46,044 bases of DNA from Parabacteroides distasonis. Lineage in GTDB: Bacteria; Bacteroidota; Bacteroidia; Bacteroidales; Tannerellaceae. Below, in pieces: positions 1,771 to 44,220 of this stretch. A model generated the notes under the pieces. It was given only the letters and a program-made list of their open reading frames with translations, was not told the origin of the DNA and made no database searches. Within the stretch, counting starts at the first letter, position 1, and every line of letters begins with the position of its first letter. The stretch lies in contig NZ_SRYM01000031.1 in the NCBI RefSeq assembly GCF_004793765.1, forward strand, positions 1-46,044, given 5' to 3'. A program made the position numbers and the translations under genes.

Positions 1771-1862
1771 GCAAATAATCCGGTATAACTACCCTTTTCG
1801 AAGAATATATACTTCAAGTGGCATTAGATATATACTTCATTGCCCAAGTAAGTATATCTTCT
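1771..1862. repeat. Direct repeat R1 / ~23-bp-period palindromic array downstream of the ATPase gene
   Basis: This stretch contains three TATATA-centred units spaced 23 bases apart, judged by the CTTC ends at 1813, 1836 and 1859. The first, about 1801-1816, is a near-perfect 16-bp inverted repeat (GAAG...CTTC). Its first 67 bases align, in the same orientation, with 3472-3537 on the other side of the ATPase gene, including the shared blocks TAATCC, GTATAACT and GAATATATACT. It lies between the ATPase stop codon and the start of the TPR gene. Confidence 0.65.
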
Positions 1863-1878
1863 CTCGCAGGCATGTCAC

Positions 1879-3438
1879 CTAAACGATCTCCCAACGATCC
1901 AGGTTCCGTTCCTCCTTGCTGAAAGAGCCCCCTATCTTTACCAACCGCCGGCCGTCGGCCTGATAAGGGAACAGATAGCCCTTCTCGTTGATCTGCCTCA
2001 ACGCATCCTCCACCGAGCCGTCCAGCTTGAACTCGAAGACATAAATATAATCGGAGGTTTTCACCACGGCGTCCACACGGCCTTTGGCACTTTTCACCTC
2101 CGCCTCGCAGAACTGGCCCATCAACTTAAAGACCAGATAGAATACCACCTGATAGTGGCGTTCCGTCTTTGCGTTCAACTCATAGGGGAAGTCGGCGAAG
2201 AAGGCTTTCAGACGGGTAAGGAAGGCATCCGCGTCACCGGATCTCAATTCACGGATGAATTTACCGATATAAAAACCTTTCTCGTCATCCGTGATAGAAC
2301 TGTAGAAAGGAAGGATGAAATTAAGGAAGCCGTATCGAACCTCATCATTTGGGAAACCCAAAGAGTAGAGGCCGAACTCCTTATCATACCCTTTGATCGT
2401 CAAATAACCGCTTTGGTATATCAGCGGGATCGGATTATTACCGCTCGCACGGTACTCGGCGAAAGAGGAGGCCTCCGCCTCTACGCCATCTATCAATGTA
2501 CGGAGGTCGTACTCGCTATCTTGCAGCAGTTTCACCAGGAAGGTAGGGGTTCCGGTCTGGAACCAATAACTGCCGAACTCTTTCTTTTGCAGGCAACTCA
2601 AGGTGCTGAAGGGATTAAAGACTCCCTCGCAGGAAGGGTGAAAATGATAACCGTCGTATTGACACATCATCCGGGCGACCACCTCTTCCTCCCGGCATTC
2701 CTGCACCTCCGCCATTTTCTTCAATTCCGGAGCAAACGTATGAAGCAACTCATCATGCGTAATCCCGCACAAGGTGGCATAATCGTAATCCAGGCTGATA
2801 TCGTTCAACTGGTTCAGGTCGCTAAAGACACTCACTTGGGAGAACTTGGTAACTCCGGTCAGGAATACGAATCTCAAGAAACGATCCGCGCTTTTCAATA
2901 CGCCATAGAAACCTTTTAAGGTATTCCGGTAATCATCCAGTAACTTTTCATCCGTAAGCGCCTGAAGCAAAGGCTTATCATATTCATCCACCAACACCAC
3001 GACACCACGTCCGGTCCGCTTATAAGCCCGGGCTATCACGCCGATAAAACGATCGGATACCGTAACCTCCCGCTCATCTTTGCCCCAACAATCCTCCCAT
3101 ACATTCAAATGACGGGAAAGGATAGACACCAGACGCTCGGGGGAATCATATTTCTCGGCGTTCAGATCCAGATGCAATACAGGATAAGAAATCCAATCCC
3201 GCTCCAACTTCTCGATCGCCAATCCCTCGAACAATTCCTTTTTTCCCTTGAAATAGGCTTCCAAGGTAGAGATCAACAAGCTCTTGCCGAAACGACGGGG
3301 GCGGCTCAGGAAATAGGGCTTTCCCATTGTCACCAGTTGATAAACCAATTCGGTCTTATCCACATAAAGATAATTCTCCTTACGCAAATACTCAAAACTC
3401 TGCACCCCGATAGGTAATTTCCGTATTCCTGCTATCAT
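1879..3438 (-). CDS. AAA-ATPase-like / PD-(D/E)XK nuclease superfamily protein
   Basis: 519 residues from the ATG at 3438. The open frame runs further upstream, but that extension translates the repeat at 3472-3537, and MIAGIRKLPIGVQSFE is the usual start of this family. The N-terminal AAA-ATPase-like domain shows YVDKTELVYQL, SRPRRFGKSLL (a P-loop variant) and VVLVDEYDKPLL (Walker B). The C-terminal part has the nuclease-like signature DAVVKTSDYIYVFEFKLDG, matching the D...(D/E)xK pattern. Such genes are present in many copies in Bacteroides and Parabacteroides. Their role is unknown; mobility or defence links are only suggested. A minus-strand TATCTTTG box at 3471-3464 gives it its own promoter. 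The flanking direct repeats suggest that it arrived or was duplicated as a cassette. Confidence 0.85.
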   Translation of the reverse strand: MIAGIRKLPIGVQSFEYLRKENYLYVDKTELVYQLVTMGKPYFLSRPRRFGKSLLISTLEAYFKGKKELFEGLAIEKLERDWISYPVLHLDLNAEKYDSPERLVSILSRHLNVWEDCWGKDEREVTVSDRFIGVIARAYKRTGRGVVVLVDEYDKPLLQALTDEKLLDDYRNTLKGFYGVLKSADRFLRFVFLTGVTKFSQVSVFSDLNQLNDISLDYDYATLCGITHDELLHTFAPELKKMAEVQECREEEVVARMMCQYDGYHFHPSCEGVFNPFSTLSCLQKKEFGSYWFQTGTPTFLVKLLQDSEYDLRTLIDGVEAEASSFAEYRASGNNPIPLIYQSGYLTIKGYDKEFGLYSLGFPNDEVRYGFLNFILPFYSSITDDEKGFYIGKFIRELRSGDADAFLTRLKAFFADFPYELNAKTERHYQVVFYLVFKLMGQFCEAEVKSAKGRVDAVVKTSDYIYVFEFKLDGSVEDALRQINEKGYLFPYQADGRRLVKIGGSFSKEERNLDRWEIV

Positions 3439-3463
3439 AAAGCTTATTGTTTGATGTCTCAGA

Positions 3464-3471
3464 CAAAGATA
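3464..3471 (-). promoter_or_regulatory. -7 box of the ATPase gene promoter
   Basis: The minus strand reads TATCTTTG, an exact match to the Bacteroidetes -7 consensus TAnnTTTG, 26 bases before the ATG at 3438. I see no clear -33 TTG at the expected distance. The box sits at the edge of repeat R2; the matching place beside R1 reads CAGCTTTG. Confidence 0.5.
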
Positions 3472-3537
3472 GCAATAATCCAGTATAACTTTTCCCTCCT
3501 TGTAGAATATATACTGCGAGTGCCTTAGGATATAAGT
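3472..3537. repeat. Direct repeat R2 / ~22-bp-period array upstream of the ATPase gene
   Basis: Imperfect copy of R1 (1771-1837) in the same orientation. Units begin AG at about 3482, 3504 and 3527, spacings of 22 and 23 bases, with cores AGTATAACT, AGAATATATACT and AGGATATAAGT that approximate the palindrome AGTATATACT. It overlaps the last codons of the small membrane-protein gene at 3525-3734 and lies just upstream of the ATPase promoter. Confidence 0.65.
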
Positions 3538-3734
3538 CCCAGCACCCCACAAGCGATCAGCCCGACTCCCAGCAACGCATAGAAGACACGTGCGCCGCCA
3601 CGACCGAACCAGTTCACGAAAGTCATCGCCCCGCTGGTTTTAAAGTACCAATCCAAATTAAAGATCGCCGCTACGATTGAAAACAATCCCAGAGCGATAA
3701 ATAAGACTAAGATAAAGTATTCGGAAGGACCCAT
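3525..3734 (-). CDS. Small two-helix membrane protein (Imm17-like)
   Basis: 69 residues with two hydrophobic segments, about 6-25 (ILVLFIALGLFSIVAAIF) and 47-67 (ARVFYALLGVGLIACGVLGL), joined by a loop containing WYFKTSGAMTFVNWFGRGGAR. Size and pattern resemble proteins annotated as immunity 17 family in Bacteroidales. No toxin gene is nearby, so an immunity role is not supported by context. It starts 4 bases after the tsaE stop and is probably cotranscribed with it. Its last codons lie inside repeat R2, so its C-terminus may have been reshaped by that repeat. Confidence 0.6.
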   Translation of the reverse strand: MGPSEYFILVLFIALGLFSIVAAIFNLDWYFKTSGAMTFVNWFGRGGARVFYALLGVGLIACGVLGLIS

Positions 3735-3738
3735 AGAC

Positions 3739-5784: not shown

Positions 5785-5804
5785 AAACTTACCTGGTTTA
5801 TTTA

Positions 5805-6070: not shown

Positions 6071-6125
6071 CTTCTTGATATAGATAAAATATTAACATAT
6101 AAGCTTATACAGTTTTTATCCATGA

Positions 6126-6235
6126 AAAACTAAAGTTTTATACCGCTAAAACCTTTGTTTTCCGCTTAGGAAACTTTTGTTTCTATATAGGGAAACTAAG
6201 GTTTCTTCAGCACGAAACTTTTGTTTTCTGTAGGA
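6126..6235. repeat. Tandem array: five 22-bp units with an AAAC-N4-GTTT palindromic core
   Basis: Five units start at 6126, 6148, 6170, 6192 and 6214, exactly 22 bases apart. Each begins with a 14-base inverted repeat: AAAAC/GTTTT in units 1-2, GAAAC/GTTTC in units 3-4, and GAAAC/GTTTT in unit 5. The loop is TAAA, CTTT, TTTT, TAAG and TTTT in turn, followed by an unconserved 8-base spacer. The outer pair changes from A-T to G-C on both arms together, and unit 5 would form a G-U pair in plus-strand RNA. It sits just upstream of the broken sigma-factor copy. Confidence 0.85.
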
Positions 6236-6321
6236 GTAAAGAAAATAGTTCCCTAGGAACTTTGCAGAACTTAGTTTTACTTCAGAAGTCATGTAATCTT
6301 ATTTTTATTACTCAGCTTATA

Positions 6322-6498
6322 ATGGCAAAAGACAATTTTAACATTATTTGCGAACGAAACTATCAACGATCGTTCATGTTCGCTAAATCAGATGATATGA
6401 TAGCAGAAGATATCGTATCCGATTCTCTTGTGAAGTATTGGAGACTGATCTCCACCCAAAAAGGAGAAGCAACAATAACCGGAAAGCGGGGAAAATAA
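6322..6498 (+). pseudogene. Truncated ECF sigma-factor copy ending in a hydrolase-gene remnant
   Basis: Codons from 6322 encode MAKDNFNIICERNYQRSFMF...DDMIAEDIVSDSLVKYWRLIS, clearly homologous to the N-terminal region 2 of the intact sigma factor that follows (FNIIYERNYRRSFLF...DDMVAEDIVAESLVKYWRLVS), with a 3-residue gap. Homology stops after about 50 residues, so the rest of region 2, the linker and region 4 are missing. Its last bases and the next few (6475-6505) match 29 of 31 positions of 17368-17398 near the 3' end of the second hydrolase gene, in a different frame. The protein divergence shows the sigma copy is an old paralogue, not a recent duplication. Confidence 0.8.
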
Positions 6499-6505
6499 AA
6501 GTATG
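6475..6505 (+). repeat. 31-bp remnant of a GH127 gene 3' end
   Basis: 29 of 31 bases are identical to 17368-17398 in the second hydrolase gene, where they encode NRKAGRMKV and the first base of the next codon's neighbourhood. In the matching frame here they read NRKAGKIKV and then a TGA stop where the hydrolase has Trp. Similarity ends abruptly on both sides, as expected for a recombination scar. Confidence 0.8.
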
Positions 6506-6565
6506 ATTACTTTAACTATTTTTCTATCAAAAATTCCTACTTTTACCGCTAAATCTGTATTGAAG

Positions 6566-7111
6566 ATGAAAGGAGACGATTTTAATATCATTTATGAACG
6601 GAATTACCGACGGTCATTCCTGTTCACCAAATCATATGTACATGATGACATGGTGGCTGAGGATATCGTAGCTGAATCGCTTGTAAAATATTGGCGACTG
6701 GTCTCTGCTGGAGAAAACGAGATAACAGAAGCCTTATTGCTCACGATTTTGAAAAATAAAGCCCTTAACTATTTACGCCATAAAGCCATACATGATGCCG
6801 CTATTGAAAATTTAGAGGAAATAAAGAATAGAGAACTAAGCATTAGAATTTCCACACTCGAGGCTTGCGATCCGAAAGAGATCTTCTCCGATGAGGTCAA
6901 TAGGATCATCCACAAAACTTTAAAAAACTTACCAGAACAAACTCATCGAATATTCGAGATGAGCCGCTTCGAGAATAAAACCGTAAAAGAAATAGCGGAT
7001 GAGACAAACCTCACCATAAAAGGTGTAGAATACCACATAACCAAAGCTTTAAAAGCTTTGCGTATCAACTTGAAAGACTATCTACCCTTATTTTATTTTC
7101 TTTTTTCTTAA
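6566..7111 (+). CDS. ECF RNA polymerase sigma-70 factor of the PUL
   Basis: 181 residues from the ATG at 6566 (MKGDDFNIIYERNY), the usual start for this family; the frame stays open to 6503, but that extension includes the hydrolase-gene remnant. Region 2 includes DDMVAEDIVAESLVKYWRL, and region 4 is LPEQTHRIFEMSRFENKTVKEIADETNLTIKGVEYH with its helix-turn-helix. It is the Bacteroidetes type (RpoE/FecI-like) encoded with a FecR anti-sigma factor and an STN-bearing SusC. Expected action: released by FecR when the SusC STN domain signals glycan import, it transcribes the susC-susD-hydrolase genes. It lies 74 bases upstream of fecR. Confidence 0.93.
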   Translation: MKGDDFNIIYERNYRRSFLFTKSYVHDDMVAEDIVAESLVKYWRLVSAGENEITEALLLTILKNKALNYLRHKAIHDAAIENLEEIKNRELSIRISTLEACDPKEIFSDEVNRIIHKTLKNLPEQTHRIFEMSRFENKTVKEIADETNLTIKGVEYHITKALKALRINLKDYLPLFYFLFS

Positions 7112-25964: not shown

Positions 25965-25986
25965 AAAATGCAGATTGAGTAAGCCA

Positions 25987-26074
25987 ACGCCAGTATACGT
26001 GTAGCCCTACGCCGATATACGTATAAGGCCACACCGATATAGGCACAGCCCCATGCCGATACTGGCGCACAGCG
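25987..26074. repeat. Tandem array: four 22-bp units, core around CCGATATA
   Basis: Units start at 25987, 26009, 26031 and 26053, exactly 22 bases apart. Shared positions are AYRCC at the start (ACGCC, ACGCC, ACACC, ATGCC), a central GATA/GTATA and a C-rich spacer (GCCC, GGCC, GCCCC). Inverted symmetry is partial: ACG...CGT in units 1-2 and CC...GG in units 3-4. It lies in the 344-base gap between divergent genes starting at 25821 (minus) and 26166 (plus). Confidence 0.75.
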
Positions 26075-26165
26075 CAAGTTCTTCACCGATTTCGGCTTCA
26101 AGCACATATTCGGAAGGGAAATAGAATAAGAATCGCTATATTCGCAGGATAAACAAATCAAACAT

Positions 26166-26600: not shown

Positions 26601-26631
26601 TCGTCTAATGGAAATATATTCCTTTGCCTAT

Positions 26632-26787
26632 TGGCAATACCTTGACATCGCCTCTGACAAAGGACTGTCATCCCGGATGACAAGGCATTGTCATGCTTAT
26701 GGCAATACTTTGCCACCCGCATGGCAAAACATTGTCACGTAGATGGCAAAATATTGTCACGCACGTGGCAGAATATGCGACACTAAG
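26632..26787. repeat. Tandem array: seven ~22-bp units, TGRCA-N6-TGYCA palindromic core
   Basis: Units start at 26632, 26655, 26678, 26700, 26722, 26744 and 26766 (spacings 23, 23, 22, 22, 22, 22). Each has a 16-base inverted repeat, then a 6-7 base spacer. Arm pairs are TGGCA/TGACA, TGACA/TGTCA (twice), TGGCA/TGCCA, TGGCA/TGTCA (twice) and a degraded last unit. Changes keep pairing: TGACA goes with TGTCA and TGGCA with TGCCA, and the mixed TGGCA/TGTCA units would form a G-U pair in plus-strand RNA. It fills much of the gap before the RND efflux operon. Confidence 0.88.
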
Positions 26788-26926
26788 AAAGACGATCCGT
26801 CAAGTAAAGAACATGTTTCTCAAAAAATAGCATCTTTGATTAAACCTTTTCACGTAACGGATGTCTATACTTGCGTTTGATTATATATTTTGGAGTAACA
26901 AATTTTAGTAAATACCATACGAGAAC

Positions 26927-28030: not shown

Positions 28031-28041
28031 GGAGAAGAACG

Positions 28042-31077: not shown

Positions 31078-31088
31078 TAAATAAACAC

Positions 31089-32432: not shown

Positions 32433-32433
32433 G

Positions 32434-32530
32434 ATAAAGGCCAGTGCCACGCCTATGGCACGACTGTGGCACTGCGATGGCACGCTGGTGCCACCGTTAT
32501 GGCACGGGTGTGCCATCCGCATGGCACAAG
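32434..32530. repeat. Tandem array: about 4.5 units of 22 bp, TGGCAC-N4-GTGCCA core
   Basis: Units start at 32434 (left half degraded), 32456, 32478, 32500 and 32522 (half unit), 22 bases apart. Units at 32478 and 32500 have perfect 16-base inverted repeats TGGCAC-N4-GTGCCA; spacers are TGCGA-like, CCGTTA and TCCGCA. The core resembles that of the array at the other end of the efflux operon (26632-26787), but with GC-rich arms. It follows the last gene of the operon directly, so it would be in its 3' untranslated RNA. Confidence 0.88.
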
Positions 32531-32632
32531 TCATTATAACCCCGTTTAATGACTAGAGGCTTATGCTAATTGCGTTTTTTTATGTAAGTTCGCGGTAAAT
32601 GGCAAGGTCTCATTGCCCAATGACAAAAAGAA

Positions 32633-33424: not shown

Positions 33425-33443
33425 GATTCAAAACAAGTCAGAT

Positions 33444-34007: not shown

Positions 34008-34078
34008 TAAATAAAGTCATATTTTCGCGGAAAAATAGAGAACCAAATCGCTCCGGCGATTATTAATACTTGACAGCT

Positions 34079-34300: not shown

Positions 34301-34334
34301 TTCAATTGAGAATTAAAAATTAAGAAATATAAAG

Positions 34335-34379
34335 AACGAGGTGGCGGACGATCGGGCTCCCCTGCCTCGTTGCTTTTTT
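34335..34379 (+). terminator. Terminator after the DUF2795 gene
   Basis: AACGAGG and CCTCGTT pair around a GC-rich 23-base loop that can pair further, and GCTTTTTT follows. It separates the adenosyltransferase/DUF2795 genes from the T9SS operon. Confidence 0.75.
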
Positions 34380-34441
34380 GTGAAAATACAATTTATCCGG
34401 ATTTGCTGCGTTTGTAGTTACAACGCGAAGTGAATGTTTAA

Positions 34442-35389
34442 ATGAGAAGACGTCTTCTTTCGATCCTGATCCTTTTGTGTACCTGTGCGGGAATCGTACG
34501 GGCGCAATATGACGCACGCTTAAGTCAATATTTCATGGCGAAACCGTATTATAACCCGGCGGTGGCCGGAGCAACGGAGGATTTGAATATATTGGCTCTC
34601 GCTCGCATGGAGATGGTCGGAGTGCATGGGGCACCCATGTCGTTTTTCATTACGGCGGATATGCCACTCACTTTAGGCAAGACGAATCACGGTGTCGGAT
34701 TGGTTGTATTTACCGAGGCGATCGGACTTTTCCAGAATACGCATGTAGGGGCGCAATACGCTTATAAGTATAAATTATTCGGGGGAGTCTTGAGCGGAGG
34801 TCTGCAAATCGGTTTAGTCAACCAATCGTTCGACGGAACCAAGGTGATAAAGGTTGAGTCCGAATACCATCAAGAGACCGATGCCGCCATTCCTGTAGAG
34901 CAGGTCAGCGGCATGGGGTTGGATATGAACTTCGGTATTTACTATACCCATAAACAGTTTTACGCCGGGTTTGGCATGACGCATATCACCCAACCGGAGC
35001 TTCAACTGGACGAGAACGCCTATACCTATATAGGTCGTTCACTTAATCTAATGGGTGGATACAATATTCAATTAAAGAATCCGTTGATAGAATTACAGCC
35101 CTCGGTGTTCTTGCTGACAGACATGCAAAGCTTTCACGCGGATATTACCGCTAGGCTGGAATATAATAAGATGTTTAATGGTGGTTTTTCCTATCGGGTG
35201 AATGAATCGGTGGGCATCATGTTCGGCGTAAAGCTAGGTCGTTTCCATGCGGGTTACGCCTTTGATTTCCCGACCACGGCGCTAGGCCGGGCAAGTAGCG
35301 GCAGCCACGAGCTATGTATCAAGTACGCCTTAAAGCTGAACAAGACGAAGACAGGAAAAAATAGACATAAAAGTGTACGTATATTATAG
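34442..35389 (+). CDS. porP: T9SS outer-membrane protein PorP/SprF family
   Basis: 315 residues with a Sec signal (LLSILILLCTCAGIVRAQ). PorP/SprF signature: YDARLSQYFMAKPYYNPAVAGATEDLNILALAR, then beta strands (HTHVGAQYAYKY-like pattern, GGLQIGLVNQSFDG) and FHAGYAFDFPTTALG near the end. It is an outer-membrane beta-barrel-type component that associates with the PorK/PorN ring. It is the first gene of the porPKLMN operon, 3 bases before porK. Confidence 0.93.
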   Translation: MRRRLLSILILLCTCAGIVRAQYDARLSQYFMAKPYYNPAVAGATEDLNILALARMEMVGVHGAPMSFFITADMPLTLGKTNHGVGLVVFTEAIGLFQNTHVGAQYAYKYKLFGGVLSGGLQIGLVNQSFDGTKVIKVESEYHQETDAAIPVEQVSGMGLDMNFGIYYTHKQFYAGFGMTHITQPELQLDENAYTYIGRSLNLMGGYNIQLKNPLIELQPSVFLLTDMQSFHADITARLEYNKMFNGGFSYRVNESVGIMFGVKLGRFHAGYAFDFPTTALGRASSGSHELCIKYALKLNKTKTGKNRHKSVRIL

Positions 35390-35392
35390 TAT

Positions 35393-36823
35393 ATGAAAAA
35401 AGTATTATTAGTACTTGTAACGGTAGCCTTGCTTACCTCCTCCTGCGGTAAATCTCTCCGGAGTGCCGGCGGTGAGGTGACAGGTGTCAGATCGGTAGCG
35501 TTCAATGAACCAGCGCCGTATGGAATGGTCTTGGTTAAAAGAGGTTCATTCGAGATGGGTCCCTCCGACAAGGATTCCTTGTGGGGAATCATGCCGGAGA
35601 CAAAAGGGGTCTCTTTCGACGCGTTCTGGATGGATCAGACAGAGGTAACGAACGCCAAATATCGCCAGTTCGTTTATTGGGTGAGGGACTCTATTATCCG
35701 TGAACGCTTGGCGGATCCGGCTTATGGAGGCAACGATCTGTTCAAGATCACGGAAGACCGTTACGGGGAGCCTGTCACTCCGCATTTGGACTGGAACCGT
35801 CCGATTCCTTGGAGACGGGCGAACGAGGATGAGCAACGTGCGATAGAAAGTGTCTATTACACGAATCCCGTTACCGGAGAGAAAGGTTTGGACCCTAAAC
35901 AAATGATCTATAAATACGAGTGGTACGACTATACCGCCGCCGCCCTCCGCAAGAATCAGTTGAACCCGGTGGACCGAGTTCGTAATACGGATATTCAGGT
36001 AGATCCGAACGAGGTAGTCATGATCTCCAAGGATACCGCTTACATCGATGATGAAGGACGTGTAATCAACGAAACGATCACCCGCCCGTTAAGCAGCGAA
36101 TGGGATTTCTTGAATACCCGTATCGTCAATATCTACCCGGACGAGAATTGCTGGGTGAACGATTTCAAGAATGCGTACAACGAGCCATATACCCGTATGT
36201 ATTTCTCTCATCCGGGTTACGATGATTATCCCGTAGTCGGTGTTTCTTGGGAACAAGCGACTGCCTTCTGCGTATGGCGCACGAATTTATACAAAGAGTC
36301 TTTGAGCTTACCTCCGGGGCAATTGGTAGAGCCGTTCCGCCTTCCGTCCGAGGGAGAATGGGAATATGCCGCCCGTACGGGTAAGAATGAGAATAAGTTC
36401 CCTTGGTCTACCGACGAGCTGCAAGACAGCAAAGGTTGTTTCTTGGGTAACTTCAAGCCGGGTAAAGGTAATTATACGGAGGATGGCCATTTGATTACGT
36501 CTCGTGTAGGCTCTTTTGCCCCGAATGAGTTCGGGTTATACGATATGGCAGGAAACGTGGCGGAATGGACTTCAACGTCCTACTCCGAGTCTGGCCCGAG
36601 CCAAATGAGCGACATGAATCCGGATCTGCGTTACAACGCCGCCAAGAACGATCCCTACGCCATGAAAAAGAAAGTAGTGCGAGGAGGTTCATGGAAAGAT
36701 GTCTCACAATTTATCCGTTCGGACATGCGTACTTTCGAGTTTCAGAACGAGAGCCGTTCTTACATCGGTTTCCGTTGCGCACGTACCCAAATAGGATTCT
36801 CTCGCTCCAAAGGAAAGAAATAA
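35393..36823 (+). CDS. porK: T9SS outer-membrane ring lipoprotein PorK/GldK
   Basis: 476 residues. The lipobox is LLTSSC with Cys18. The protein has the formylglycine-generating-enzyme/sulfatase-modifying fold used structurally in GldK: GMVLVKRGSFEMGPSDKDSLWG, FDAFWMDQTEVTNAKYRQFV, PVVGVSWEQATAFCVWR, FRLPSEGEWEYAARTG, LYDMAGNVAEWTST and VVRGGSWKDVSQFIRS. PorK forms the periplasmic ring with PorN under the outer membrane. No sulfatase gene is near, so an enzymatic role is unlikely. Confidence 0.95.
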   Translation: MKKVLLVLVTVALLTSSCGKSLRSAGGEVTGVRSVAFNEPAPYGMVLVKRGSFEMGPSDKDSLWGIMPETKGVSFDAFWMDQTEVTNAKYRQFVYWVRDSIIRERLADPAYGGNDLFKITEDRYGEPVTPHLDWNRPIPWRRANEDEQRAIESVYYTNPVTGEKGLDPKQMIYKYEWYDYTAAALRKNQLNPVDRVRNTDIQVDPNEVVMISKDTAYIDDEGRVINETITRPLSSEWDFLNTRIVNIYPDENCWVNDFKNAYNEPYTRMYFSHPGYDDYPVVGVSWEQATAFCVWRTNLYKESLSLPPGQLVEPFRLPSEGEWEYAARTGKNENKFPWSTDELQDSKGCFLGNFKPGKGNYTEDGHLITSRVGSFAPNEFGLYDMAGNVAEWTSTSYSESGPSQMSDMNPDLRYNAAKNDPYAMKKKVVRGGSWKDVSQFIRSDMRTFEFQNESRSYIGFRCARTQIGFSRSKGKK

Positions 36824-36874
36824 GCGGGAATTATAAATTTAAATTTTTGAATCATTTAAGACAATAATACAACG

Positions 36875-37966
36875 ATGGGAAAATATAGAAGATATAAAAA
36901 CAGACTGGAGATGTTCCTATCCAGCGAAAGAGGAAAACGAGTATTGAACTTCCTGTATAGTTGGGGTGCGTCCATCGTAATCCTCGGTGCGTTGTTCAAG
37001 TTATTACATATACCATACGCTAACCAAATCCTGTTCGTGGCGATGATCACCGAGTCTATCGTATTCTTTATCTCGGCGTTCGAGCATCCGAACAAGGAAT
37101 ATCATTGGGAAGATGTTTTCCCTGTATTGAAATCAAAGAACCCGATGGATCGTCCGGATTTCACCGGTACGCCAATCTCAACCATGATCAATTCTACAGA
37201 TAATGTAGAAGACGATGAGATAGCGGGAGGAATAAATATCGGTTCAGCAGCGTCTAAAGCGAACGCACAAAGAGGTGGTTCCTTGAATATCGCAGGTAAT
37301 CTGGACGTGACGGAAGAAGATACCAAGAACTTATCCGAGAGCATCAAGAAATTAAGCGGAGCGGCCGAGCAAATCTCCAAAATGGCGGAATTGACGGAAG
37401 CTACCCAAAAATATCTGGAGCAATTATCTGGCATGTCTGAGAACATGGAGCGTTTCAGCCAAGTGACTCATTCACTTACGAACGTATCCGATACGCTGTT
37501 GAACTCTTATAAGAGTATCACGGATAATTCCGATGGCATCAGCCAGAACTCCCGTGGTTACGTACACCAGATGGAACAATTGAATCGTAATGTGTCCGGA
37601 TTGAATACGATCTATGAGATCCAGTTGAAGAGCATCAGCTCGCAGATCGAGTCTATCGAGCATATCAACAGTGGTTTGAGCCGTATCCGTGAGATGTACG
37701 ACGGATCGGTGGTAGATAGCTCCGTATTCCGTAACGAGACGGAAAAGATGACTCGCCAACTGGCCGAATTGAACCAAGTATACAGTCGTTTATTGCAAGC
37801 GATGACCGTGAATATGGGCTACCAACAACCGGCGCAGCCGCAACAACAACCTCAACAACCGATGTATCAGCAGCCACAACAGCCCGGTTACCAACAGCAA
37901 TATCAGCAACCCTATGGTTACCAACAGCCACAACAGGCTCCGTATACAAACAACCCAATGAAGTAA
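36875..37966 (+). CDS. porL: T9SS inner-membrane motor protein PorL/GldL with a Gln/Pro-rich tail
   Basis: 363 residues. Two membrane helices at about 27-46 (LYSWGASIVILGALFKLLH) and 53-70 (ILFVAMITESIVFFISAFE) form the proton-driven stator-like unit with PorM; the Glu in ITESIVFF is in the place of the proton-relay residue. Then come EHPNKEYHWEDVFPVL, a helical cytoplasmic coiled-coil region (about 135-310), and an odd C-terminal tail of about 45 residues made almost only of Gln, Pro, Tyr and Gly (for example QQPQQPMYQQPQQPGYQQ). The tail makes it longer than the GldL forms I know. Confidence 0.94.
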   Translation: MGKYRRYKNRLEMFLSSERGKRVLNFLYSWGASIVILGALFKLLHIPYANQILFVAMITESIVFFISAFEHPNKEYHWEDVFPVLKSKNPMDRPDFTGTPISTMINSTDNVEDDEIAGGINIGSAASKANAQRGGSLNIAGNLDVTEEDTKNLSESIKKLSGAAEQISKMAELTEATQKYLEQLSGMSENMERFSQVTHSLTNVSDTLLNSYKSITDNSDGISQNSRGYVHQMEQLNRNVSGLNTIYEIQLKSISSQIESIEHINSGLSRIREMYDGSVVDSSVFRNETEKMTRQLAELNQVYSRLLQAMTVNMGYQQPAQPQQQPQQPMYQQPQQPGYQQQYQQPYGYQQPQQAPYTNNPMK

Positions 37967-37972
37967 AGAAAT

Positions 37973-39541
37973 ATGGCAGGAATATCAAATAATCCCAATT
38001 CTCCCCGTCAGCGGATGATCAACCTGATGTATCTGGTGTTCATCGCCATGATGGCACTGAATGTGTCGTCGGAGGTGCTGGATGGTTTTGAGTTGGTGGA
38101 AGGTAGCTTGCGAACCTCTATCGATAACTCCTCCCGCCGAAACAAGATCGTAGCGGACGAGATGGAAGCTTATTACCAAGAGAATCCCCAGAAAGTGGGT
38201 GAGTGGGCATTGAAGGCCCGTGAGGTGAAAAGAGCCTCAGATAGCCTCTATACGTATATACAAGATTTAAAGATCCGTATCGCTAAGGTAGCTGATGGCG
38301 AGAATGCCAACGTAAACAGCATCGAGCATAAGGATGATTTGGAAGCCGCCTCCCGTGTAATGCTCTCTCCTGTAAGCGGAGAAGGTAAAAAGCTGAGAGC
38401 GGAAATTGATAAGTATCGTATCTGGATGGGCGGCTTTATCGAAGATTCGGCGAAGACTGCCGTATTGGAGGCGAACCTAAGTACCACTCCCCCTCATAAA
38501 GCGGGTATCAATACCCGTACTTGGGAAGAGGCCTTGTTCGAGAATATGCCGGTAGCGGCGGCTGTTACCCTGTTAACAAAAATGCAAAGTGACGTTCGCT
38601 ACGCCGAAGGTGAGGTCTTATCGAACTTATTGAATAGCGTAGACGTTGGCGATTACCGTGTGAACCAGATCACGGCGCAGGTAATTCCAGAAAGCCAGAT
38701 CGTTATGCGAGGAAGCCAGTACAAGGCGAATATCGTATTATCGGCGGTAGACTCCACGAAACGTCCTACGATCTATGTAAACGGAAAGGAATTACCTTAC
38801 GAGAATAAAGGAGTCTTCACGGTAAATACCGGAGCTGCCGGGACATTCCCTGTCAAAGGTTATATTGAGATGCCGAATAGCGACGGCAGTGTCATGCGCC
38901 GGGATTTCGAGAGCGAGTATTTCGTGACCGAGCCGACAGCTACCGTGGCACCGACACTGATGAACGTATTATATGCCGGTATCGCCAACCCGATGCGTAT
39001 CGCCGTGCCGGGTGTACCGAGCGGTAACGTAACAGCTACCATGACGAACGGCACATTAACCCGCAGCAAGGATGGTTGGGAAGCCCGCCCGTCCAAAGTA
39101 GGGACGGAAGCCGTGATCACGGTAAACGCCCGTATGGCGGATGGCCGGAACATAGAGATGGCAAAGACTACCTTCCGCGTGCGTGCCCTCCCCGATCCCC
39201 TGCCCTATATCGAGTATAAGGATCAAAACGGTAACGTCCGTAAGTTTAAGGGAGGTATGATCGCCAAACGTAGCTTGGTAGAGGCTGACGGTATTCTGGC
39301 CGCTATCGACGATGATTTGCTAAATGTAAAATATACGGTATTACGTTTTGAGCTGACTTTCTTCGACTCCATGGGTAACGCTATCCCGGAAGTGGCCGAA
39401 GGAACCAACTTCTCGCAACGTCAGAAAAACTATATCCGCAATCTAAGTAAGGGTAAACGTTTTTATATCACCCGTGTAGTCGCAAAAGGTCCGGACGGTA
39501 TCGAACGTACCATACCGACTATCGAAGTAATCGTAAATTAA
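37973..39541 (+). CDS. porM: T9SS motor/trans-envelope protein PorM/GldM
   Basis: 522 residues. The N-terminus, [33 protein letters not shown], is the conserved single membrane helix and start of the periplasmic part. The large periplasmic region is made of a helical D1 domain and Ig-like D2-D4 domains ([24 protein letters not shown] starts the second). It spans the periplasm as a dimer, linking PorL in the inner membrane to the PorK/PorN ring. It starts 6 bases after porL. Confidence 0.96.
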
Positions 39542-39551
39542 GATTCGCTGT

Positions 39552-40643
39552 ATGAAACATCTGTATTACATAGCCGCTTTGGCCGCCACTTTTTTAACAA
39601 CGATGCCTCTTCACGCACAAGAAGAAGTTGAGAACGAAGCTACGCAGCAACAACAAATGCGCCGCCGCTCGCCTCAAGCCAGCCGTGGGGAAAGAAACGA
39701 TAAGAAAGATACCGGTTTACCCGAACTGACCGTACGGGCCCAAGATATGAACGAGCGTTTGACGCAAGAGATCGGGAACGCTCGCTGGATGCGTATTATC
39801 TACCGGCAGGTGGACTTGATGAAAGAGCAGAACGCTCCGCTTTATTACCCGACCCGCCCGATGAACGGACAGATGAATCTTTTCTCCGTAATCTTCCAGC
39901 TTTTAGGAGAGAACAAGATCAAGGCCTATGAGTATCTGGACGGATACGAGGAGTTTGACGAAGCCCATTTGATCAACTTCAAGGATTTGCTGGATCGCTT
40001 CTACATCCTTTATGAGGAGATGCCGGGAAGAGCGGGTGAGGAACCGACTTTCGTAATCAATGAGAGCGATATACCGGCAGCCGACATACGGTCTTATTAT
40101 GTAAAAGAAGCATGGTATTTCGACCAGAATAATTCCGCTTTTGATGTCAAGATATTGGCGATTTGCCCGATCCTTACCTCTACAGGTGATATGGGAGAGA
40201 CAACCATGCCTATGTTCTGGCTGCCTTACGAGAACATACGTCCGTATATCAGTAATTCATACATCATGACGTCTAATATGAATAACGCCATGACTTTCAC
40301 GATGGACGACTATTTCCGTCGCCGTATGTTCGAGGGAGATATCATCAAGACCCAAAACTTAATGAATCTGCCATTGCAGGCGTATTGCCCGACACCGGAT
40401 TCCTTAAAGAACGAGCAAGCTCGTATCGAAAGCCAATTGACGGGCTTTGAGAAGTCACTCTGGTATCAACCGGATACGACTCAAGTAGCGGTAGACAGCA
40501 AAGCCGCGAAGAAAGCAGCTAAGAGAAGTGCCCGGAAAGACAAAGGCTCTACCAAAGAGACCGCTCCCGAGAAAGCCGCTAAAGTAAAAGCGCCGAAAGC
40601 AGAGAAATCCGCCCCTGTGCGCAGTGTACGACGCAGAAGATAA
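39552..40643 (+). CDS. porN: T9SS ring protein PorN/GldN with a basic C-terminal tail
   Basis: 363 residues, signal peptide ending near TMPLHAQ. The GldN domain at about 60-310 shows ARWMRIIYRQVDLMKEQNAPLYYPTRP, YVKEAWYFDQNNSAFDVKILAICP and MFWLPYENIRPYI. It pairs with PorK to form the periplasmic ring. The last about 45 residues are Lys/Ala/Arg-rich and end in SVRRRR, a low-complexity basic tail likely to be disordered. It starts 10 bases after porM and is the last gene of the operon. Confidence 0.94.
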   Translation: MKHLYYIAALAATFLTTMPLHAQEEVENEATQQQQMRRRSPQASRGERNDKKDTGLPELTVRAQDMNERLTQEIGNARWMRIIYRQVDLMKEQNAPLYYPTRPMNGQMNLFSVIFQLLGENKIKAYEYLDGYEEFDEAHLINFKDLLDRFYILYEEMPGRAGEEPTFVINESDIPAADIRSYYVKEAWYFDQNNSAFDVKILAICPILTSTGDMGETTMPMFWLPYENIRPYISNSYIMTSNMNNAMTFTMDDYFRRRMFEGDIIKTQNLMNLPLQAYCPTPDSLKNEQARIESQLTGFEKSLWYQPDTTQVAVDSKAAKKAAKRSARKDKGSTKETAPEKAAKVKAPKAEKSAPVRSVRRRR

Positions 40644-40686
40644 AAAGAAGCACATATGCCTGGCATAGAGTAAAAATATGATAGCT

Positions 40687-40728
40687 AAGAGAGCCTCGCC
40701 TCTGCCTTGCCATAGATGAGGCTCTCTT
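40687..40728. terminator. Bidirectional terminator between porN and the DUF418 gene
   Basis: AAGAGAGCCTC and GAGGCTCTCTT form a perfect 11-bp stem. It lies between convergent genes ending at 40643 (plus) and 40737 (minus). Confidence 0.8.
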
Positions 40729-40736
40729 ACATATTT

Positions 40737-41924
40737 CTACTTAGAACCTACCCATGTCCATTTATGCCAAATACCTTCCAACGGTCCATGTTTATGTCTT
40801 TCTGCCCACCATTTACAAAAGCGTATTTGCAAGAAGAAAAAGGCGATACCGATGAACATACTGACCGTATAACCGCAGTAAGGAGCCAAATTCAAGCCGA
40901 TCGGGAAATAGATCAACGCACCGAAAAAGGATTGCGACACGTAATTCGTCAAACTCATCTTCCCATACGAGCGCAAGACGGAAGTGAAACGCCTAAAACC
41001 CTCCCATTGGTACAGTAACACGAAAGAGGCGACCAATACAAACGTGAAAGCGAATTTCTGCCACATATCAAGTGCCACTGCCACGGTCTGACATACCAAA
41101 GCGTTATCTGCCCTATCTTGTAACAATACCCCCAATTGGAACAAAGGGCAGAAAGCAATCGAGGCGATAATTAGAGTCTTTATCCAAAAACGGGAATTCT
41201 CCTCCGAGGGGATAAATAATTTCTTGCGCCCGATCAACATGCCCAGCATAAACAACCCACAGGTCTGTACATACCGGCCGGCACCAACGGCCCAGAGCAA
41301 ACTAGCCTTTTGCCCCAACGTCACGTTCTGCCAGATGAAGTTCCAGAGGTCGCCCCGTTTGGTATGTTCTGCCATCTCAGCGTACATCGCCCCAACCCCT
41401 AAATCGGGAAGTTGGTGACCCGGATTAAACAAACTAGCGATGTAATGATACCACTCCACCGGCTGCAATAAAAAGATAATAGCCGTTATCAAGACAGCCT
41501 TATCGCTCCATTTACGCACGATAAACAAAACAACACCTACGATCGCATACAGCAACAGCACATCGCCTGCCGGATAGAAAGCGGCGTTCAGCGTAGCAAA
41601 GAGCGTCAGTAACAACATCCGCCAAAGAAAACGGTAACCGAAGTCCTTCCCCTTCGCCTGCTGGTTCGAATACTGTATATAAAAGGTAAAGCCGAATAAC
41701 AATGCGAAGATGGAATACGATTTACCGGCGAACAAGCCAAATACCACCGTAAATACACCCTCATTCAATACGTTCAGCCATCCCGGAAGCGTAGCCGGGT
41801 CCGGATAGACCGGATAGATAAAATGTTCCACATGATGCACCAATAAGATGGCCAAGACAGCGAATCCACGTAGCGCATCCACCACCTCTACACGAGGCGG
41901 CTTAGAGATTGTTATTTGTTGCAT
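40737..41924 (-). CDS. DUF418-family multi-pass membrane protein
   Basis: 395 residues with about 9-10 membrane segments. The start RVEVVDALRGFAVLAILLVHHVEHF is the DUF418 / heparan-alpha-glucosaminide-acyltransferase-like first helix, and the C-terminal VLRSYGKMSLTNYVSQSFFGALIYFPIG...RFCKWWAERHKHGPLEGIWHKWTW is the conserved DUF418 end. It may transfer acyl groups across the membrane, but substrates are not known. It starts 4 bases after the nitrilase stop, so the two are one operon. Confidence 0.9.
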   Translation of the reverse strand: MQQITISKPPRVEVVDALRGFAVLAILLVHHVEHFIYPVYPDPATLPGWLNVLNEGVFTVVFGLFAGKSYSIFALLFGFTFYIQYSNQQAKGKDFGYRFLWRMLLLTLFATLNAAFYPAGDVLLLYAIVGVVLFIVRKWSDKAVLITAIIFLLQPVEWYHYIASLFNPGHQLPDLGVGAMYAEMAEHTKRGDLWNFIWQNVTLGQKASLLWAVGAGRYVQTCGLFMLGMLIGRKKLFIPSEENSRFWIKTLIIASIAFCPLFQLGVLLQDRADNALVCQTVAVALDMWQKFAFTFVLVASFVLLYQWEGFRRFTSVLRSYGKMSLTNYVSQSFFGALIYFPIGLNLAPYCGYTVSMFIGIAFFFLQIRFCKWWAERHKHGPLEGIWHKWTWVGSK

Positions 41925-41928
41925 ACTA

Positions 41929-42888
41929 TTATTTGCTATTTGTTGTTTCTGTTAACCATGCTACCTTTTGATTGGACTCATGCGGTTGACCGATGATATC
42001 CGCATAAAGTTCCGGACGACGGGCATTTCGGTAACGATATCCTCCAGCCTGTCTCAATTTCTCAGGGATAGCCGTAGCGATCACGAAATCATCCCCCAGC
42101 TTACGGCATTCCGCCACGATATCGCCGAAAGGATCCAAAATCATCGAGCAACCGTTCTTGATCTCATTATAATCACGCCCGATCGGATTGGAGAATACCA
42201 CATATACCGCATTGTCGTACGCCCTAGCGGGAAGCCATTTCATAAGCCAAGCACGTCCCTTCAGGCCATCGAACTCCTGTCGCAAGGAAGTCGGATCGTT
42301 TGCCCGGTTCTCCCACAACACAGGATCTATCAAACCAGCCCCGGGGCGAGGGGAAGGGGTACACATTGTCACGTGAGGCATGAAAATGATATCCGCCCCT
42401 AATAAGGCCGTGGCCCGGACATTCTCTATGATATTATTATCATAGCAAATCAATATGCCACATTTCCATCCCTTGATCTCAAGAACCACATATTGATCGC
42501 CCGGCAAGATATTCGGATTAATAAACGGATGTAGCTTGCGGTACTTTGCTTTCAAGCCATTGCTATCTGCGCAAACTTGCGCTTTATAGATACGATCCCC
42601 ATCCCGCTCAAAGAATCCGGCCAGCAACGTGACACCAAACTCTTTGGCGATGGCGATCAAGGCTTGCGTACTCTCCCCCGTAGGGATCGGTTCGGCAATA
42701 GCCAACAATTCCTTGCGAGACAAGTCCTTGGCAAACGTATATCCACAAACCGAGCATTCGTGAAAAGCCACTACATCCGCTCCCTCTACCGACGCTTTCC
42801 GGCACATCTCCCGGATGACAGAAAGATTATACCCCTTATCGTTATCCCGTGTCTCGAACTGCACGGTGGCGATTTTCAATGGTTCCAT
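41929..42888 (-). CDS. Nitrilase-superfamily carbon-nitrogen hydrolase
   Basis: 319 residues from ATG 42888. The frame is open to 42933, but that Met overlaps the -7 box, so MEPLKIATVQFETRD is the start. The Glu-Lys-Cys triad is visible: E44 in VAFHECSVCGYTF, K118 in KAKYRKLHPF and C148 in CGILICYDNNIIEN. It hydrolyses an amide or nitrile C-N bond; a beta-alanine-synthase-like or N-carbamoyl-type amidase is possible but not determinable. It is cytoplasmic, the first gene of the operon with the DUF418 protein. Confidence 0.92.
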   Translation of the reverse strand: MEPLKIATVQFETRDNDKGYNLSVIREMCRKASVEGADVVAFHECSVCGYTFAKDLSRKELLAIAEPIPTGESTQALIAIAKEFGVTLLAGFFERDGDRIYKAQVCADSNGLKAKYRKLHPFINPNILPGDQYVVLEIKGWKCGILICYDNNIIENVRATALLGADIIFMPHVTMCTPSPRPGAGLIDPVLWENRANDPTSLRQEFDGLKGRAWLMKWLPARAYDNAVYVVFSNPIGRDYNEIKNGCSMILDPFGDIVAECRKLGDDFVIATAIPEKLRQAGGYRYRNARRPELYADIIGQPHESNQKVAWLTETTNSK

Positions 42889-42932
42889 GATATTTTGATT
42901 TAATTGGCTTATATATTTTTCGACTAGGTTCA

Positions 42933-42940
42933 CAAAGATA
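42933..42940 (-). promoter_or_regulatory. -7 box of the nitrilase/DUF418 operon
   Basis: The minus strand reads TATCTTTG, matching TAnnTTTG exactly, 45 bases upstream of the ATG at 42888. It lies only 12 bases from the opposing box at 42953-42960, so the two promoters overlap. Confidence 0.6.
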
Positions 42941-42952
42941 ACAATAATATAC

Positions 42953-42960
42953 TACTTTTG
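42953..42960 (+). promoter_or_regulatory. -7 box of the GNAT/CAT-like operon
   Basis: TACTTTTG followed by CGGG, an exact match to TAnnTTTG, 23 bases before the ATG at 42984. A weak -33 (TTCA) begins 24 bases upstream, inside the opposing promoter. Confidence 0.6.
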
Positions 42961-42983
42961 CGGGATAACTTTTTCTACCGATC

Positions 42984-43493
42984 ATGAATATCAGACAAAC
43001 ACGACAAGAAGATCTGGCCGAGGTAATGGCTATGTACGATTATGCACGCCGGTTCATGCAAGAACATGGCAACGGCAATCAATGGATCAATGGATATCCT
43101 TCCGAGGAATTGATCTCCAACGAGATCAAGGCCAGCCATAGTTTCGTATGCGAAAATGAGCAGGGCGAGTTAGTGGGGACCTTTTGTTACATCGAGGGAA
43201 TTGACCCTACTTACCTAAAGATCTATGAAGGCGAATGGCTGAACGATGAGCCTTATGCCGTGATCCATCGCATGGCCTCCAACGGCAAGCAGAAAGGAAT
43301 CTCCTCCGCATGCCTGGAATGGGCATTCGCACATTGCGATAATATCCGTATCGACACGCACCGGGATAATATCGTCATGCAGAACCTATTGAAAAAGCAT
43401 GGCTTCAAGCGATGCGGTATCATTTACATAGCGAATGGTACGGAACGCATCGCTTTCCACAAAATAGTAAACCCAACAAATAAAGAATCATGA
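42984..43493 (+). CDS. GNAT-family N-acetyltransferase
   Basis: 169 residues, cytoplasmic. GNAT fold: IRQTRQEDLAEVMAMYDYARRFM (beta1-alpha1), EQGELVGTFCYIEG (beta-strand motif), HRMASNGKQKGISSACLEWAFAHC (acetyl-CoA-binding motif A, with a GKQKGIS loop in place of the usual R/QxxGxG/A), and NLLKKHGFKRCGIIYI at the end. The acceptor is unknown. It overlaps the next gene by 4 bases (ATGA), indicating translational coupling. Confidence 0.88.
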   Translation: MNIRQTRQEDLAEVMAMYDYARRFMQEHGNGNQWINGYPSEELISNEIKASHSFVCENEQGELVGTFCYIEGIDPTYLKIYEGEWLNDEPYAVIHRMASNGKQKGISSACLEWAFAHCDNIRIDTHRDNIVMQNLLKKHGFKRCGIIYIANGTERIAFHKIVNPTNKES

Positions 43494-44113
43494 AGCATCC
43501 TATTGACCTAGAGCATTGGAACCGGAAAGAACATTTCCTGTTTTTCGATGCTATGGATGACCCTTTCTTCGGGCTGACCACCCAGATAGACGTGACCTCT
43601 ATTTATAAAGAGGCGAAAGCGGATCATGCCTCTTTTTTCCTCTACTCCTTACATAAGATTATGACAGCCGTTAATGAGGTGGAAGAGTTCCGGTACCGGA
43701 TCATCGAGAACATCCCTGTCTGCTTCGACCGAATCCACGTGGGCACAACGATCGGGCGGGAAGACGGAACATTCGGCTTCGGCTTCATCGAATATACCCC
43801 GGACAGACAGCTGTTCCTTCAAAATGCGCAGAAAGAGATCGAGCGAGTGCAAGCTCTCACCGGCCTTTGCAAAGATAGGGAATCTGACCGGCAAGACCTA
43901 ATCCGTTTCTCCTCGGTACCATGGATCGCCTTCACGGAGATGAAACATGCTTCCTCTTTCCGTACAGGTGATTCTGCTACCCGAATTTCCACCGGAAAAC
44001 TGATCGAGCAGAACGGGCATCGGATGCTCCCTATCTCCGTAACGGCTCATCATGGCTTGATGGACGGCAGGCATGTGTCGATCCTCCTAGACCGTATAGC
44101 GGATAAAGACTAA
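43490..44113 (+). CDS. CatA-like (chloramphenicol acetyltransferase family) protein
   Basis: 207 residues, close to the usual CAT length. The catalytic motif HHxxxDG is present as HHGLMDG, with the catalytic His at about 188; the start of the family fold is WNRKEHFLFFDAMDDPFFGLTTQIDVT, and VPWIAFTEMKHA occupies the usual SxxPW.xF position. It uses acetyl-CoA to acetylate a hydroxyl group, but whether chloramphenicol is the substrate cannot be said: many chromosomal Bacteroidales members of this family give no known resistance. It overlaps the GNAT gene and ends before the array at 44130. Confidence 0.86.
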   Translation: MKHPIDLEHWNRKEHFLFFDAMDDPFFGLTTQIDVTSIYKEAKADHASFFLYSLHKIMTAVNEVEEFRYRIIENIPVCFDRIHVGTTIGREDGTFGFGFIEYTPDRQLFLQNAQKEIERVQALTGLCKDRESDRQDLIRFSSVPWIAFTEMKHASSFRTGDSATRISTGKLIEQNGHRMLPISVTAHHGLMDGRHVSILLDRIADKD

Positions 44114-44129
44114 ATAATATACATGAAGC

Positions 44130-44220
44130 AGTACTCTCATAAGGAGTACTACAGTACCTCGTAGGGAGTACCTCAGTACTTCAAAGGCAGTACTGTAGTA
44201 CTGCCTTTGAAGTACTGAGG
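44130..44220. repeat. Tandem array with AGTACT palindromes, 22-bp period, ending in a 50-bp perfect hairpin
   Basis: AGTACY half-sites start at 44145, 44167, 44189 and 44211, exactly 22 apart, each followed 8 bases on by a second AGTAC half. A further AGTACT at 44130 lies one base off the phase. Cores are AGTACTACAGTACC, AGTACCTCAGTACT and AGTACTGTAGTACT. The last part, 44171-44220, is a perfect inverted repeat: 23-base arms around TGTA, including spacers (TCAAAGG and CCTTTGA). It lies between convergent genes, ending at 44113 (plus) and 44290 (minus), and probably also serves as a terminator. Confidence 0.88.

Follow-up and report, generated by a model that had tools for sequence, protein, structure and literature searches.

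Why does intergenic DNA in this part of the Parabacteroides distasonis genome repeat every 22 or 23 bp, with cores that differ from site to site? The window, the whole stretch of 46,044 nucleotides that was analysed, was scanned for repeats at lags 5–60. Lag 22 was found at five sites (6110–6197, 25979–26066, 26688–26775, 32440–32527 and 44115–44202) and lag 23 at one (26605–26693), with harmonics at lags 11 and 44. Beyond these, the scan returned a single coding stretch near 37.8 kb.

Arrays in the window

The arrays and the leader of one of them are as follows.

1771..1862, no strand assigned: family 1 array with a 23-bp period and two to three units (ATATATACTTC), from sequence, inverted repeats and family 1 grouping; adjoins an AAA-ATPase/PDDEXK_9 gene (1879–3552)
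3472..3537, no strand assigned: degenerate family 1 array at the opposite end of the gene at 1879–3552, from sequence and family 1 grouping; has AATAATCC(A/G)GTATAACT in common with the 1771 site
6090..6125, plus strand: leader like those of other F1 copies (ATATAAG..A-CAGTTTTT..), from flank matches among F1 loci
6126..6236, no strand assigned: F1 array of five 22-bp units with AAAC/GTTT half-sites and a variable 4-base centre; flanked by a response-regulator gene, which we take to be PorX-like, and an ECF-sigma-like frame
25979..26079, no strand assigned: family 2 array, 22 bp, CCGATATA-type units
26605..26797, no strand assigned: family 8 array, 22 bp, with TG(C/T)CA and TG(G/A)CA half-sites; its left part (26605–26693) is weaker and has a 23-bp period
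32434..32530, no strand assigned: family 6 array, GTGCCA-N6-TGGCAC, beginning directly 3' of a TolC-family stop codon and followed by the inverted repeat AGTCATTATAACCCCGTTTAATGACT
44129..44220, no strand assigned: family 9 array with AGTACT half-sites between convergent genes, ending in a perfect 24-bp inverted repeat (44171–44220)

The initial annotation had listed seven sites with a period of 22, sometimes 23. Five of the seven pass the scan, and the short site at 1771 and the degenerate site at 3472 fall below its threshold. Both cluster by similarity with family 1 members elsewhere in the genome. When palindromy was compared with shuffles, the 1771 site was equalled by 4 of 100 and the 3472 site by 81 of 100, the latter being no more palindromic than the shuffles. 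The intergenic position of the arrays is borne out, as is the description of one period carried by many sequences. The site at 25987 overlaps a 110-aa reading frame that looks spurious. DNA resembling the family 8 array occurs at six other sites in genome G012 and at three in G037.

Abundance, symmetry and placement

The period extends well beyond the window. Of the 24 intergenic tandem arrays with periods of 12–59 in 497 kb of the same genome, 17 repeat every 22 or 23 bp, and the peak is confined to these two values; shuffled noncoding DNA gave none or one such array. Lag 22 scored 11 times and lag 23 6 times in a sample of 35,767 noncoding bases from this genome; 100 dinucleotide shuffles of the same bases gave on average 0.00 and 0.01 such hits and never more than 0 and 1, respectively. 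Extrapolation from the 17 arrays in 497 kb gives about 140 in the chromosome. Among other Parabacteroides stretches, 10 of 15 arrays have a period of 21–23, compared with one of six in 19 Bacteroidia genomes outside Bacteroidales and none of three in E. coli. The excess at lag 22 that had been predicted genome-wide and in relatives is thus present.

The arrays fall into about 15 sequence groups, many of them dispersed. Family 3 (F3) and part of family 1 (F1, the AAAC-N4-GTTT family) have 23-bp units, and most other families have 22. Two-unit matches in the genome itself number 39 for F1 and 40 for F3. F3 also matched 10 P. distasonis records that are labelled as plasmids. A leader-like flank is found at 7 of 11 F1 loci, using a pattern made after the copies were seen, and flank matches in families other than F1 are almost absent. 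The proposal that arrays are born locally by one copying process is unsupported because the cores are dispersed. The leader common to several F1 copies and the existence of orthologous sites with or without an array also speak against it.

In 23 of 48 arrays, palindromy was stronger than in 99 or more of 100 column shuffles. The dyad design that most sites had been said to share is therefore real but not universal: about half of the arrays have dyads every 22–23 bp. Extragenic palindromic units with regular spacing and in both orientations were found. F1 units tend not to have self-complementary centres: the central pair is so in 3 of 51, where 21 would be expected, and AAAA was counted 13 times, TTTT 12 times and AATT not at all. 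A simple dimer operator would not predict this bias, which would also fit the loop of a hairpin or a recombination site with an orientation.

Placement is biased towards gene ends. Convergent genes flank 23 of 76 arrays, compared with 15% of intergenic bases, and of the 36 arrays between codirectional genes 25 are closer to the stop of the upstream gene. Divergent genes flank 17 of the 76. In this genome alone the number is 7 of 37, so that a role as a boundary cannot cover all arrays. The neighbours have no family in common: 187 Pfam families occur among 79 neighbours, and none is found in more than three. F1 was also considered as a regulon and rejected, as six annotated P. distasonis places matching F1 DNA adjoin genes that are unrelated by annotation.

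Comparison between relatives

The genome (G000) was compared with the relatives G004, G023 and G017. Two-unit matches to F1 number 39 in G000, 49 in G004, 51 in G023 and 0 in G017, and those to F3 number 40, 32, 23 and 32, respectively; of the two families, G017 is without F1 alone. A search of G017 with five F1 loci of G000 returned nine matches, all of them flanks, and at four of the five loci both flanks are kept and the array is missing. At the pdxB–MFS locus, G017 retains a single GTTTC-N8-GAAAC as a relic, and between cmk and ispH it keeps an apparent half-unit relic. Loss of F1 in G017 is likelier than a late gain elsewhere, because both G023 and G004 carry arrays at loci L019 and L020.

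In G023, the arrays at L019, L020 and L024 have mixed AAAC/ACAC half-sites and C-TGYAG-like centres. The exact F1 variant GACACTRYAGTGTC, found at one of the three, has 11 copies in G023 and none in the 37 other Parabacteroides genomes. The drift of the core is partial, as plain F1 remains in G023 with its 51 two-unit matches. Between G000 and G004, differences were counted at 20 of 392 core positions (defined from other loci) and at 68 of 627 other array positions, a slower change of the core that depends largely on two loci.

Arrays are variably present or absent at orthologous sites, and one family may stand where another is found in a sister genome. The pdxB–MFS locus contains F1 in G000, F12 in G004 and an F1 variant in G023. 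The G004 counterpart of the 6126 site has two F12 units upstream of the same left gene, and at one further site an F3 array in G000 corresponds to a single 32-bp hairpin-forming palindrome in G004 and G023. The family 6 array at 32434 is present in G004 and in a named P. distasonis strain and absent in G023; the family 9 array at 44129 is about one unit longer in G023 and absent in G017. Differences between genomes at two sites amount to exactly 44 bp, or two units. Between two P. distasonis strains, the unit number was identical at three arrays.

Known systems and competing explanations

Cooperative operator arrays and plasmid iterons contain helically phased sites about 20–22 bp apart, with one protein per array. 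The Parabacteroides arrays resemble them in helical phase and spacing and differ in their number (about 140 in the chromosome), their unrelated neighbour genes and their frequent position at 3' ends. REP/BIME elements are similar in being dispersed extragenic palindromes with regular spacing and units in both orientations; PMC2817692 reports gyrase binding by BIME-2 and a contribution of REPs to Rho-dependent termination. Here, in contrast, the unit is 22–23 bp and many unrelated cores have one period. Identity with RAYT/REP was rejected, as Y1_Tnp (PF01797, RAYT) gave no match in the genome itself; the control genomes were positive in 5 of 14.

The nearest described element is the BrickBuilt MITE of Porphyromonas gingivalis (PMC4596501), an intergenic 23-nt tandem unit present in 19 copies in one strain, with the consensus AGAYCATARTATCCTCTCRTRTG and predicted long stem-loops. 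In our own reading of that consensus, the palindrome TCTCATATGAGA would span the unit joint. The same paper refers to 22- and 23-nt tandem repeats reported earlier in P. gingivalis W83. BrickBuilt shares with our arrays the order, the intergenic location and a 23-nt tandem unit without spacers. It is described there as one family with a leader and a tail with IS5-like inverted ends, whereas the arrays here form about 15 groups in one genome, with shared flanks almost confined to F1 and patchy turnover of families. IS5-type ends (GAGACCTTTGCA / TGCAAAGGTCTC, with at most two mismatches) were found at 3 sites within 300 bp of 48 arrays, against 1.5 expected. BrickBuilt-type IS5 ends were accordingly rejected. 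The suggestion that the arrays might be catalogued under a REP/MITE-like term thus stands to the extent that BrickBuilt is a described 23-nt case, but its inverted ends are not enriched here. Among the papers listed in literature searches, some of them largely off-topic, BrickBuilt and the P. gingivalis 22/23-nt repeats were the only descriptions of anything similar.

We tentatively favour an explanation in which the arrays are BIME-like DNA elements, and family-specific trans-acting protein dimers bind the dyads and keep each family. Dimers of a protein encoded elsewhere in the genome, a different one for each family, would occupy neighbouring dyads 22–23 bp apart, all on the same helical face. 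Where arrays lie at the ends of genes or separate convergent genes, as many do, the coated DNA could serve as a boundary for transcription or topology. Because every array of a family would rely on one protein, its loss would let all arrays of that family collapse by deletion between units; a change in the protein would let the core of the family drift. The sharp period peak, the dispersed and patchily distributed families, the absence of F1 but not F3 from G017, the core drift in G023, the slower core, the placement of the arrays and the equal folding of sense and antisense RNA speak for this; the unrelated neighbour genes, the F1 centres, the arrays without excess palindromy, the persistence of plain F1 in G023, the possible strand leaning of single arrays and the arrays between divergent genes speak against it. 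That families come and go among close relatives suggests that each answers to a protein of its own.

Under a possible but doubtful alternative, an unrecognised enzyme copies the arrays into intergenic DNA as selfish, dispersed repeats, and their common period is the footprint of that enzyme family. If existing palindromes were the preferred targets, families would replace one another at the same site, which is consistent with the three variants at pdxB–MFS and with the F3 array opposite the 32-bp palindrome. Dispersal, presence or absence at orthologous sites and the leader-like flank at 7 of 11 F1 copies also fit. Against it, a RAYT-type Y1 transposase is absent from this genome, most families have no common flanks, IS5-type ends are not in excess, a search for a phage origin of F1 found no phage match, and unit number is the same at three arrays in two P. 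distasonis strains. Selfish copying alone also leaves the loss of only F1 in G017 unexplained.

It is improbable that the arrays act as RNA, in the form of tandem 3'-end hairpins that stop transcription or protect mRNA. The bias to gene ends, the plain 32-bp hairpin in two sister genomes and the non-complementary F1 centres, which suit loops, would agree with such a role, as would the 32434 array, which folds strongly as a single strand under DNA parameters (z −4.5). However, sense RNA was more stable than antisense in 18 of 36 cases (p 0.96), and G-U and A-C mispairs were balanced in sum over 48 arrays (194 and 207). A strand preference in the mispairs is possible for individual arrays: 3 of the 48 reach p<0.05, and the chi-square values sum to 77 over all 48. 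Adjacent unit centres showed no order of pairing, as long hairpins of alternating units would have (72 of 152 matches, compared with 74.5 shuffled). A terminator scan of the 32434 array, the one site scanned, found no terminator-like site, Rfam gave no match above the gathering score in the window, and the 17 of 76 arrays between divergent genes also disagree with this role. The RNA hairpins considered in the initial annotation thus lack a consistent strand signature, and its DNA-level explanation fits better.

Neutral minisatellites, formed by local slippage on palindromes with a period set by polymerase or hairpin size, are about as improbable: the exact two-unit differences and the perfect inverted duplication within the array at 44130 would fit them, but the same cores lie at many unlinked sites, the period is held at 22–23 and not spread, G017 lacks F1 and has F3, unit number does not differ between two P. 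distasonis strains at three arrays, and the core changes more slowly.

The explanation by family-specific dimers can be extended to a period-locked system of Bacteroidales, which we consider unlikely as it stands. Dyads every 21–23 bp would be filled by many families, each served by a different paralogue within a single protein superfamily; if a protein were lost or changed its specificity, the arrays of its family would be erased or rewritten, and other families would take over the sites. If true, bacteria would here have a counterpart to satellite DNA that co-evolves with the protein binding it. Bacterial repeats are usually named by sequence; here the spacing is the constant and the families vary between sister species. 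Correlating the presence of genes with that of array families across Parabacteroides offers a direct route to the partner protein, and common gut bacteria would gain a candidate boundary system for the chromosome or its transcripts.

Period of the arrays and its taxonomic reach

A lag scan of the window (lags 5–60) reveals a clear 22-bp period at five sites and a 23-bp period in a sixth stretch, and the remaining lags hold only harmonics and one coding repeat. The initial annotation had listed seven intergenic sites with a period of 22 or 23 bp; those at 1771 and 3472 proved weaker in period, yet were placed in a family by similarity. The strong arrays consist of about three to five units each. 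The inverted-repeat design proposed as common to the sites applies to part of the arrays examined: mirror symmetry exceeded at least 99 of 100 period-preserving column shuffles in 23 of 48, and not in the rest.

The intergenic lag-22 excess that had been anticipated genome-wide is present in a sample of the same genome (G000; 27 stretches, 497,236 bases), drawn by position and not by array matches; many of the stretches come from contigs that also bear a match to the F1 family (AAAC-N4-GTTT, 22 bp). Noncoding DNA gave 11 and 6 hits at lags 22 and 23, against dinucleotide-shuffle means of 0.00 and 0.01. Arrays were called with a fixed rule that required an intergenic site and 28 of 44 matches at a period of 12–59, taking the best lag at each site; of the 24 arrays so called in the sample, 17 have a period of 22–23 bp and a further 3 have one of 42 or 44. 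A named P. distasonis record is 95.8% identical to G000 across 93% of window positions 26100–46044. The PLSDB records NZ_OY725748–NZ_OY725834, P. distasonis TSDC17.2 "plasmids" with housekeeping genes, look chromosomal.

Under the same rule, 10 of 15 arrays were at 21–23 in other Parabacteroides stretches, which mostly surround the region orthologous to the window and hence are partly orthologous. The corresponding counts were 1 of 6, that one AT-rich, in nineteen genomes of Bacteroidia outside the order, 0 of 2 in one further genome of the order (one of the two at 44), and 0 of 3 in 250 kb of E. coli SK1144. In named genomes, the surroundings of one gene locus have a period of 21–23 in 10 of 14 arrays from Parabacteroides and Massilibacteroides, 5 of 14 from other Tannerellaceae (plus 8 at 41–46, equal to two units), 4 of 11 from Prevotellaceae and Bacteroidaceae (every one at 21, plus 2 at 41), and none of 4 from Dysgonomonadaceae and others (one at 42, one at 45). 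Based on these counts, from small samples, the array feature is strongest in Parabacteroides and its family.

Sequence families and turnover at fixed sites

DNA similarity divides the 48 arrays, five of them added by hand, into 16 groups, eight of them singletons; two singletons are the halves of the 26605–26797 site, and joining these leaves 15. For three singletons (family 8, family 9 and F12), a search found extra copies in G000, where the commonest families among those searched are F1 and F3 (ATG(GG/CC)CAT, 23 bp). Among 38 genomes of the genus, two-unit F1 matches number 51 and 49 in the sister genomes G023 and G004, 39 in G000, 28 in G021, 27 in G008, 19 in G012, 16 in G025 and 14 in G037; fourteen others have 1–7, and the remaining 16, including the sister G017, have none. 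F3 is present in eight (G020 44, G000 40, G004 32, G017 32, G023 23, G010 22, G036 5, G032 3), as is F12 (AAACRYGYRCRYGTTT), counted as single cores (G004 45, G032 27, G000 11, G023 4, and four with 1). Backward-pattern controls gave 0 in most genomes and 5 at most, but exceeded the F1 count in G002 and G013, and therefore low family counts carry little weight. The three distributions are patchy and mutually incongruent.

Arrays of families 1 and 3 directly adjoin at L010:18380–18593. At L021:16301 and other F1 loci, in addition to the leader, a TATCTACAA..TATCTACCATCATTT stretch 100–300 bp away apparently recurs near several F1 arrays, judging from secondary matches. In the window and one sister stretch, the following were observed.

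1879–3552: AAA-ATPase_like/PDDEXK_9 gene (PF09820, PF08011) with a family 1 array at either end; two tandem copies in G023
6323–6600: apparent broken duplicate of the start of an ECF sigma gene, directly before the intact frame 6503–7111
43490–44113: chloramphenicol acetyltransferase family gene (PF00302) adjoining the 44130 array; this locus has an extra ATP-binding gene in TSDC17.2 and a 3.7-kb gap between flanks in G004
L249:10798–10869 (G004): 54–72-bp stretch with a 92–94% match to Bacteroides finegoldii and Persicobacter records, possibly a far-ranging repeat

The 32434 array is common to G000, G004 and a second P. distasonis strain, and the site in G023 is a short intergenic region without an array. 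In G023 the 44130 array is longer by about one unit; G017 lacks it. At L032:7233, family 6 occupies the site in G000 and G004, and a family-8-like array in G017. The pdxB-MFS locus carries F1 in G000, F12 in G004, an F1 variant in G023 and one leftover dyad in G017. At L011:19097, where G000 has an F3 array, G004 and G023 have a lone 32-bp palindrome able to form a hairpin; its sequence in G023 is TTGTAGAGACGGGGCACGCCCCGTCTCTACAA, from which G004 differs by one base.

Five of 11 F1 loci were compared in the three sisters. In G004, four of them carry F1 and the fifth F12. In G023, three carry variant units with a mixture of AAAC and ACAC half-sites and with C-TGYAG-like centres; L022 has no array there, and L021 gave no match to an orthologous flank. 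The variant GACACTRYAGTGTC, matched exactly, occurs only in G023 (11 matches on 8 contigs, one at the compared loci). Plain F1 is still present there, so the rewriting of the F1 core is partial. G017, 91–94% identical to G000 over the window, keeps both flanks without the array at L019, L020, L022 and L024, and matches one flank only at L021. What appear to be relics remain at L020 and L024; the F3 count of G017 is normal. The family-wide loss, with relics, is the strongest hint of a trans-acting factor.

Placement, constraint and dyad symmetry

Placement was analyzed for 76 arrays of period 20–24 from many genomes, with orthologues counted apart and some loci chosen through F1 matches. Convergent gene pairs hold 23 arrays, against 15% of intergenic bases, and divergent pairs 17, against 30%; the other 36 lie between codirectional genes, 25 of them closer to the upstream stop. 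RNA folding energy did not differ between sense and antisense (18/36). Mispairs in the 48 arrays are balanced overall (G-U 194, A-C 207), with a possible lean in single arrays (3 of the 48 reach p < 0.05; the summed chi-square is 77). Together these results are read as reflecting mainly a DNA-level feature.

Between G000 and G004, nine orthologous arrays differ at 20 of 392 family-conserved positions and 68 of 627 others (p = 0.0013 on the assumption that sites are independent; conserved positions were defined from other loci), a signal supplied mostly by two of the nine loci. F1 units, 51 in all, were taken from own and sister sequences with a search pattern that itself fixes the half-sites. 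Their central four bases shun self-complementarity, with a complementary inner pair in 3 units versus 21 expected; the centre is AAAA in 13, TTTT in 12 and AATT in none. The alternate dyad centre is palindromic above expectation (21 of 38 versus 12.3). A plain dimer operator does not account for the asymmetric F1 centre, which may reflect a hairpin loop or else a crossover site with an orientation.

Origin, known relatives and possible function

The DNA helical repeat in cells is near 11 bp, and the dyad sites would be phased two helical turns apart; each array is predicted to be coated by a dimeric protein specific to its family. The chief rival, a mobile origin, would account for array dispersal and is compatible with the protein-coated dyad model. 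The closest described element is BrickBuilt, a P. gingivalis MITE whose printed 23-nt consensus has the same dyad design (PMC4596501); the same source cites earlier reports of tandem repeats of 22 and 23 nt in strain W83. The IS5-type ends of BrickBuilt were not enriched near the arrays analyzed.

REP/BIME elements are similar in their working, but no RAYT (Y1 transposase) was found in the own genome. The passage on RepRanger that names Bacteroidota (PMC12306157) covers three genomes, Parabacteroides not among them. The available portions of PMC4060949 and PMC5771137 hold nothing on 22-bp arrays, and no account of many-family 22-bp arrays was found in searches of open-access papers. For BIMEs, roles with gyrase and as terminators are described (PMC2817692). 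Given these roles and the bias toward gene ends, we infer that the likeliest function of the protein-coated dyad arrays would be that of a boundary.
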